Assembly (NCBI RefSeq): GCF_964204645.1
Contig: NC_134027.1
Coordinates: 1,724,485 to 1,788,484 of the forward strand
Reading direction: 5' to 3'
Source of the DNA: Tubulanus polymorphus
Lineage: Eukaryota > Nemertea > Palaeonemertea > Tubulaniformes > Tubulanidae
Length of the DNA stretch: 64,000 bases
Positions 23,801-24,013 of this stretch are shown here, one piece after another. The position numbers and the translations under genes are program-made. Position 1 is the first letter of the stretch. Every line of letters starts with the position of its first letter. The notes beneath the pieces were generated by a model, which had not been told where the DNA came from, searched no databases, and worked only from the letters and a program-made list of their open reading frames with translations.

Positions 23801-24013
23801 TGGAGCTACTAAAGAAGATTTCGATGCTACTATTGGCATCCATCCGACTTGCTCTGAAGTAATGAATTCGATCGTATTTTCTACTTAGACCAACATGATA
23901 TTTTCAGTCGCTAATTATTTAAAATTTATTCATTTTAGAAATTTACAACACTGGATATAACTAAACGTTCCGGACTGGACACCGAGGAGGCCGGATGTGG
24001 CGGATGAGGTTAA
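17819..24013 (+). CDS. TXNRD3: Thioredoxin-glutathione reductase (Grx-TrxR fusion selenoprotein)
   Basis: Fourteen exons: 17819-17929, 18004-18064, 18172-18258, 21382-21512, 21628-21820, 21913-21950, 22068-22172, 22276-22391, 22627-22852, 22947-23036, 23119-23192, 23277-23646, 23724-23858 and 23939-24013. They give 603 residues if the TGA at 24005 is read as Sec (602). The first three exons are a glutaredoxin domain with CPFC (32-35) and [15 protein letters not shown] 3.1-kb intron separates them from the reductase: FAD motif GGGSGG (120-125), redox Cys160/Cys165 in GGTCVNVGC, an NADPH-binding region, and the dimer-interface HP at 574-575. The enzyme passes NADPH electrons to both thioredoxin and glutathione/glutaredoxin systems. 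The ending is unusual: Gly-Cys-Gly-Gly-TGA-Gly-TAA, with two Gly codons between Cys600-region and Sec. A SECIS hairpin follows at about 24140-24212. Confidence 0.95.
18259..21381. other. Third intron of TGR (3.1 kb)
   Basis: Separates the glutaredoxin exons from the reductase exons. It is AT-rich with only short chance frames. The reductase exon 4 is open upstream to 21261, but that part has no family similarity. I see no separate gene or clear mobile element. Confidence 0.6.

Follow-up and report, generated by a model that had tools for sequence, protein, structure and literature searches.

Thioredoxin-glutathione reductase (TGR) of Echinococcus and TXNRD3 of vertebrates end in GCUG, in which U is selenocysteine (Sec). 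The reason for Sec in these enzymes is an old question, and one proposal points to strain in the ring of 8 atoms that the neighbouring residues close. Where the papers examined state the tail of a Sec-bearing TGR or thioredoxin reductase (TrxR), it is GCUG (PMC2873472, PMC8914392, PMC6155587, PMC13138743). In Schistosoma japonicum TGR, electrons are described to move from NADPH to FAD, to the CVNVGC-type pair, to the selenolthiol at the C-terminus of the partner subunit, and then to the substrate or the glutaredoxin pair, and DTNB activity was not detected when Sec was replaced with Cys (PMC13138743). For six invertebrates, a limpet and an annelid being two of them, the reported selenoproteins include thioredoxin reductases (PMC3473315). 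Plasmodium falciparum TrxR has the tail GCGGGKCG with a spaced Cys-x4-Cys pair, which closes a 20-atom ring, and the activity was significantly lower when this ring was shortened by one residue to 17 atoms (PMC6272602). Cys-Gly-Gly-Sec is given as the motif of selenoprotein M (PMC10668967), and a reversible selenenylsulfide has been reported for it (PMC3856062).

The gene described here encodes an animal-type TGR, in which the Cys and the predicted Sec of the redox arm are parted by two glycines; UGA is probably decoded as Sec, and electrons would pass through Cys599/Sec602. The gene lies at 17819-24013 on the forward strand of the window (the whole stretch of 64,000 nucleotides that was analysed). 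Its spliced translation gave an uninterrupted frame over 14 exons, with a product of 603 residues followed by a stop; the exon edges are those of a gene model predicted from the genomic sequence. The joined coding sequence is 1812 nt, all introns are GT..AG, and the sole in-frame TGA is codon 602, with the TAA at 24011-24013 (Table 1). The product has a glutaredoxin domain followed by a thioredoxin-reductase domain, in which both the FAD-proximal CVNVGC pair and the dimer-domain His/Glu (GIHPxxxE, here GIHPTCSE) were found. Pfam profiles for Glutaredoxin (PF00462), Pyr_redox_2 (PF07992) and Pyr_redox_dim (PF02852) matched over their cut-offs, and TIGR01438 matched with 727.8 bits (cut-off, 475.85), so that a glutaredoxin domain is fused to a pyridine-nucleotide disulfide oxidoreductase. 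The closest solved chains (the best 60 of 67 distinct sequences, at 1e-60) are titled TGR, thioredoxin-disulfide reductase and thioredoxin reductase 1. Because the domains, the TIGR01438 score and the nearest solved chains agree, the gene was assigned to TGR, as the preliminary description had claimed, and its domain make-up is that of an ordinary animal-type TGR. The joined frame also confirmed two further statements made there, that the phase of the last exon is set by the 13 upstream exons and that the N-terminal pair is numbered Cys160/Cys165. Near FAD, the protein has IYACGD (Cys434, exon 23277-23646), where the five solved chains compared have IYAIGD; Cys434 adds a cysteine in the neighbourhood of the flavin.

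Table 1. Positions of the TGR gene, its tail and the elements related to UGA decoding (positions in the window, except for the tRNA genes)
Feature	Position	Strand	Basis
TGR coding exons 1-7	17819-17929, 18004-18064, 18172-18258, 21382-21512, 21628-21820, 21913-21950, 22068-22172	+	spliced translation
TGR coding exons 8-14	22276-22391, 22627-22852, 22947-23036, 23119-23192, 23277-23646, 23724-23858, 23939-24013	+	spliced translation
Exons 1-3, bulk of glutaredoxin domain, dithiol CPFC (Cys32/Cys35)	17819-18258	+	translation, Pfam
Exon 5, carrying the N-terminal redox pair CVNVGC (Cys160/Cys165)	21628-21820	+	translation
Last coding exon (14)	23939-24013	+	spliced translation, single genome match
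TGT, Cys599, conserved spacing from the body	23996-23998	+	translation, tail comparison
GGC GGA, two extra Gly codons separating Cys599 and Sec602	23999-24004	+	no counterpart in the genome's second thioredoxin reductase
TGA, proposed Sec602, then GGT TAA	24005-24007	+	translation
SECIS-like element in 3' UTR; AUGA 24151-24154, UAAACC, UGAU	24141-24210	+	Rfam SECIS_1
AATAAA, candidate poly(A) signal, 3' of SECIS	25183-25188	+	motif
Strong tRNA-Sec genes	C3:4932292-4932377 (L009), C1:10220108-10220193 (L010)		profile match

Other features were seen in the window. On the reverse strand, 13134-16989 holds exons that look like those of a flap-endonuclease-type nuclease (judged by eye as GEN1-like, e.g. 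LFLGCDFIPKGVPGVGPKQA), in head-to-head orientation to TGR; a long frame of 582 residues in this region had no Pfam match. A single open frame at 10062-11162 (reverse strand) encodes a rhodopsin-family receptor (PF00001, 40.2 bits), and a mitochondrial carrier exon (PF00153, 52.8 bits) is present at 31005-31412 (reverse strand). Within 11544-12092, a repeat encodes CFMGQYAPP units in one frame, and is probably a tandem repeat, not a gene.

The last codons of TGR are GGA TGT GGC GGA TGA GGT TAA, exactly as they had been read at first, and correspond to Gly-Cys-Gly-Gly-Sec-Gly with a predicted Sec; the two Gly codons noted earlier between Cys and TGA are indeed present. The adjacent Cys-Sec (GCUG) end, which is usual for TGR and was not taken as its defining feature here, is absent, and the predicted Sec codon stands in the next-to-last place (UGA GGT UAA), as in TGR. 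This tail was compared with that of the other thioredoxin reductase in this genome, and with those of S. japonicum TGR (22ey) and the TrxR1 chain 2cfy, of which the latter two were taken from structure-chain alignments; 2cfy, which we take to be a chain of human TrxR1, has Gly in the Sec position as filed. The gap from the conserved Ser-Gly to Gly-Cys was six residues in all four tails. Since the position of Cys599 is unchanged among them, the extra residues fall after Cys and before the Sec codon. An alternative last exon giving adjacent Cys-Sec, raised earlier as a possible objection, and a second copy of the TGR end were also looked for: exon 14 gave one match in the 267.8-Mb assembly (77 contigs), and no CUG-type exon was found nearby.

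The C-terminal part of TGR matched three genes in the genome, namely TGR itself, a second thioredoxin reductase (C2, L027) and a glutathione reductase (C6), which is without the C-terminal tail. The second thioredoxin reductase ends in GGC TGC TGA GGT TAA, the ordinary Gly-Cys-Sec-Gly without GGC GGA, and is 52% identical to TGR over the reductase part, as calculated from a hand-joined model. It is provisionally labelled TrxR2-like. The codons after UGA, GGT TAA (Gly, stop), are identical in the two genes, and the animal seems to have one adjacent-type and one spaced-type Sec reductase.

A SECIS, on which the preliminary description made the decoding depend, is represented by a SECIS-like element with an intact core, which begins 133 bases downstream and has its AUGA 143 bases after the UGA. 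The match to Rfam SECIS_1 was 22.5 bits, below the gathering score of 35, with an E-value of 0.34 over 4227 families, or about 8e-5 for a single family. The SECIS of the canonical paralogue, used as a control, gave 26.9 bits and is likewise under the gathering score. The fold of the TGR element is only moderately stable (z, -1.56), and 17 of 200 shuffled sequences folded equally well. A crude SECIS filter, which required 8 of 11 ungapped helix pairs, rejected the TGR element, which has 4; the same filter accepted the SECIS of the paralogue, and six further candidates in the window passed it once an energy cut had been applied (five on the forward strand, two of them overlapping, and one on the reverse strand). 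The whole-genome SECIS_1 search at an E-value of 0.001 gave no match, and was uninformative, because the control genomes gave none either. For tRNA-Sec, two of the 23 genome matches were over the cut-off (81.6 and 81.1 bits), both with the anticodon UCA. The 21 weaker matches, at 38.3-46.7 bits, are below the cut-off and may be other tRNAs or tRNA-derived repeats.

Because a SECIS-like element, two tRNA-Sec genes and an ordinary Sec paralogue with a similarly sub-threshold SECIS are present, UGA 602 is most likely read as Sec. If UGA were a stop, the protein would end in Gly-Cys-Gly-Gly, and this TGR would be losing its use of Sec, with the work left to the second thioredoxin reductase; the lower SECIS score of TGR as compared with the paralogue, and the presence of the Sec-using paralogue and the glutathione reductase in the genome, agree with this, but GGT TAA after the UGA and the SECIS core are both retained where they should drift under a stop, and we regard termination as improbable. 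A different 3' end of the transcripts, through a weak donor and another last exon or through early polyadenylation, would give a different tail or a message without SECIS. A donor-like GAG|GTTAAT (6 of 9 consensus positions) is found at 24006-24014, and ATTAAA occurs at 24049, before the SECIS-like element, as well as at 24306; the former, if used, would exclude the SECIS. However, splicing from this donor would remove the bases that directly follow it, and with them probably the SECIS-like element, and the lone TGY-TGA-GGN string in 15000-40000 of the forward strand, at 31087, is preceded by a translation unlike TGR. Such an end is very improbable. As for the inserted bases, with a single assembly to rely on they could be an error of that assembly or an allele that is rare in the species, but this is hardly probable: GGCGGA is a 6-base, in-frame, non-homopolymer insertion in an intact gene with a single-copy last exon, and an error that kept UGA-GGT-UAA and the SECIS would be unusual. 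It may have arisen by a small in-frame duplication, as suggested at first. The GGATG repeat is present, but it has a register of 9 bases, against a net gain of 6 relative to a Cys-Sec end, and therefore a single clean tandem duplication fails to explain the tail. GGCGGA resembles the upstream GGCCGGA.

If the 3' SECIS allows UGA 602 to be decoded as Sec, electrons would flow from NADPH to FAD, to Cys160/Cys165, and to Cys599/Sec602 of the other subunit, which would pass them to thioredoxin or the glutaredoxin pair Cys32/Cys35. The ring size was calculated as 3k+5, a formula which reproduces the published 20 and 17 atoms for Plasmodium. With two glycines, the oxidised Cys599-Gly-Gly-Sec602 would close a selenenylsulfide ring of 14 atoms, as compared with 8 atoms for neighbouring Cys-Sec. 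The expected effect is a more relaxed, thioredoxin-like couple, which would still use the low pKa and reactivity of selenium, and Cys599/Sec602 may be a working couple with a longer reach. Ring size matters, because the cut from 20 to 17 atoms lowers the activity of Plasmodium TrxR significantly, and an enlargement from 8 to 14 atoms could be harmful in an enzyme body made for neighbouring redox residues. It is unlikely, though slightly less so than the alternatives above, that Sec602 is inserted but does not pair with Cys599, and acts alone or with another Cys, e.g. in the glutaredoxin domain. In Brugia TrxR, a bond between Cys22 of the glutaredoxin domain and the Cys-Sec motif at the C-terminus was observed, although catalysis was unaffected when Cys22 was changed to Ser (PMC8914392). 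Against such a partner, Cys599 stays at the conserved position, and for selenoprotein M the closing of a ring across Cys-Gly-Gly-Sec has been reported (PMC3856062).

The preliminary description knew of no natural enzyme with this ending. No spaced Cys/Sec pair was found for any thioredoxin reductase in the literature, within which subscription journals were thinly covered, and the claim stands for TrxR and TGR to that extent; the spaced pair of Plasmodium TrxR and CGGU in selenoprotein M were left unmentioned there. An overlooked database record of a reductase ending in Cys-Gly-Gly-Sec-Gly is quite possible, and engineered tails with inserted residues are reportedly present in the biochemical literature. 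The interpretation in the preliminary description is plausible and partly supported, and spaced pairs already occur in this family (Plasmodium). The TGR protein as a single query found no relatives in the prokaryote and viral collections. With a two-sequence alignment query, 27 loci were found in each collection (54 in total), with 25-39% identity in the best segment and, by title or tail, no eukaryote TGR among them. The C-terminus could be read in 48 of the 54, in which the frame at the end of the match runs to a stop codon, and the other six run open or are cut (L039, L053, L054, L074, L079, L080). No tail that resembles Cys-x-x-Sec or Cys-Sec is present in any of the 48; the ending is SCCAG in 19 of them and SCCSA in one, as in mercuric reductases. 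One locus, L031, was matched to the last query residue with unrelated letters there, probably from frame changes.

On balance, we lean towards the view that an animal lineage has fixed a TGR with a spaced, thioredoxin-like Cys-Gly-Gly-Sec and a 14-atom selenenylsulfide, by which Cys-Sec adjacency would not be required in an animal high-molecular-weight TrxR and selenium would be able to serve a relaxed ring. A natural enzyme that keeps Sec with a 14-atom ring, if true, separates the need for selenium from the need for adjacency, and this tail may be a natural test of a Cys-Sec spacing that is usually taken as fixed. An adjacent-type paralogue is present in the same genome. If true, it also warns annotators and drug designers against the use of GCUG as a fixed signature.

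In selenoprotein M, the motif lies inside a thioredoxin fold at the start of a helix, not in a flexible tail, and the protein is without FAD or NADPH. The four-residue redox motif CGGU is what it shares with the TGR tail (PMC10668967, PMC3856062). Selenoprotein O is similar in having Cys-x-x-Sec near the chain end, but is a kinase-like protein that ends in CxxUxx (PMC3281104). P. falciparum TrxR is alike in its spaced C-terminal redox pair, with a spacer that starts Gly-Cys-Gly-Gly, and differs in having Cys for Sec, four spacer residues and a 19-residue insertion loop (PMC6272602). The Plasmodium type has the Cys-x4-Cys end and no glutaredoxin domain, whereas the TGR here has Cys-x2-Sec and a glutaredoxin domain. 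From LAGSNDV to PLEYG, which may be the place of the long tail-touching loop of Plasmodium, TGR has no insertion relative to chain 2cfy, and this counts against the reading of a spaced couple. The animal TGRs (Schistosoma, Echinococcus, Schmidtea and vertebrate TXNRD3) are matched in domain order, CVNVGC, the next-to-last position of the Sec codon and length; they have a SECIS in the 3' UTR, where the gene here has a candidate element below the gathering score, and the dithiol glutaredoxin pair is as in flatworm TGRs. The tails of Schmidtea mediterranea TGR (PMC2873472) and Schistosoma TGR (PMC13138743) are given as adjacent Gly-Cys-Sec-Gly, whereas the TGR here carries a Gly-Gly spacer.
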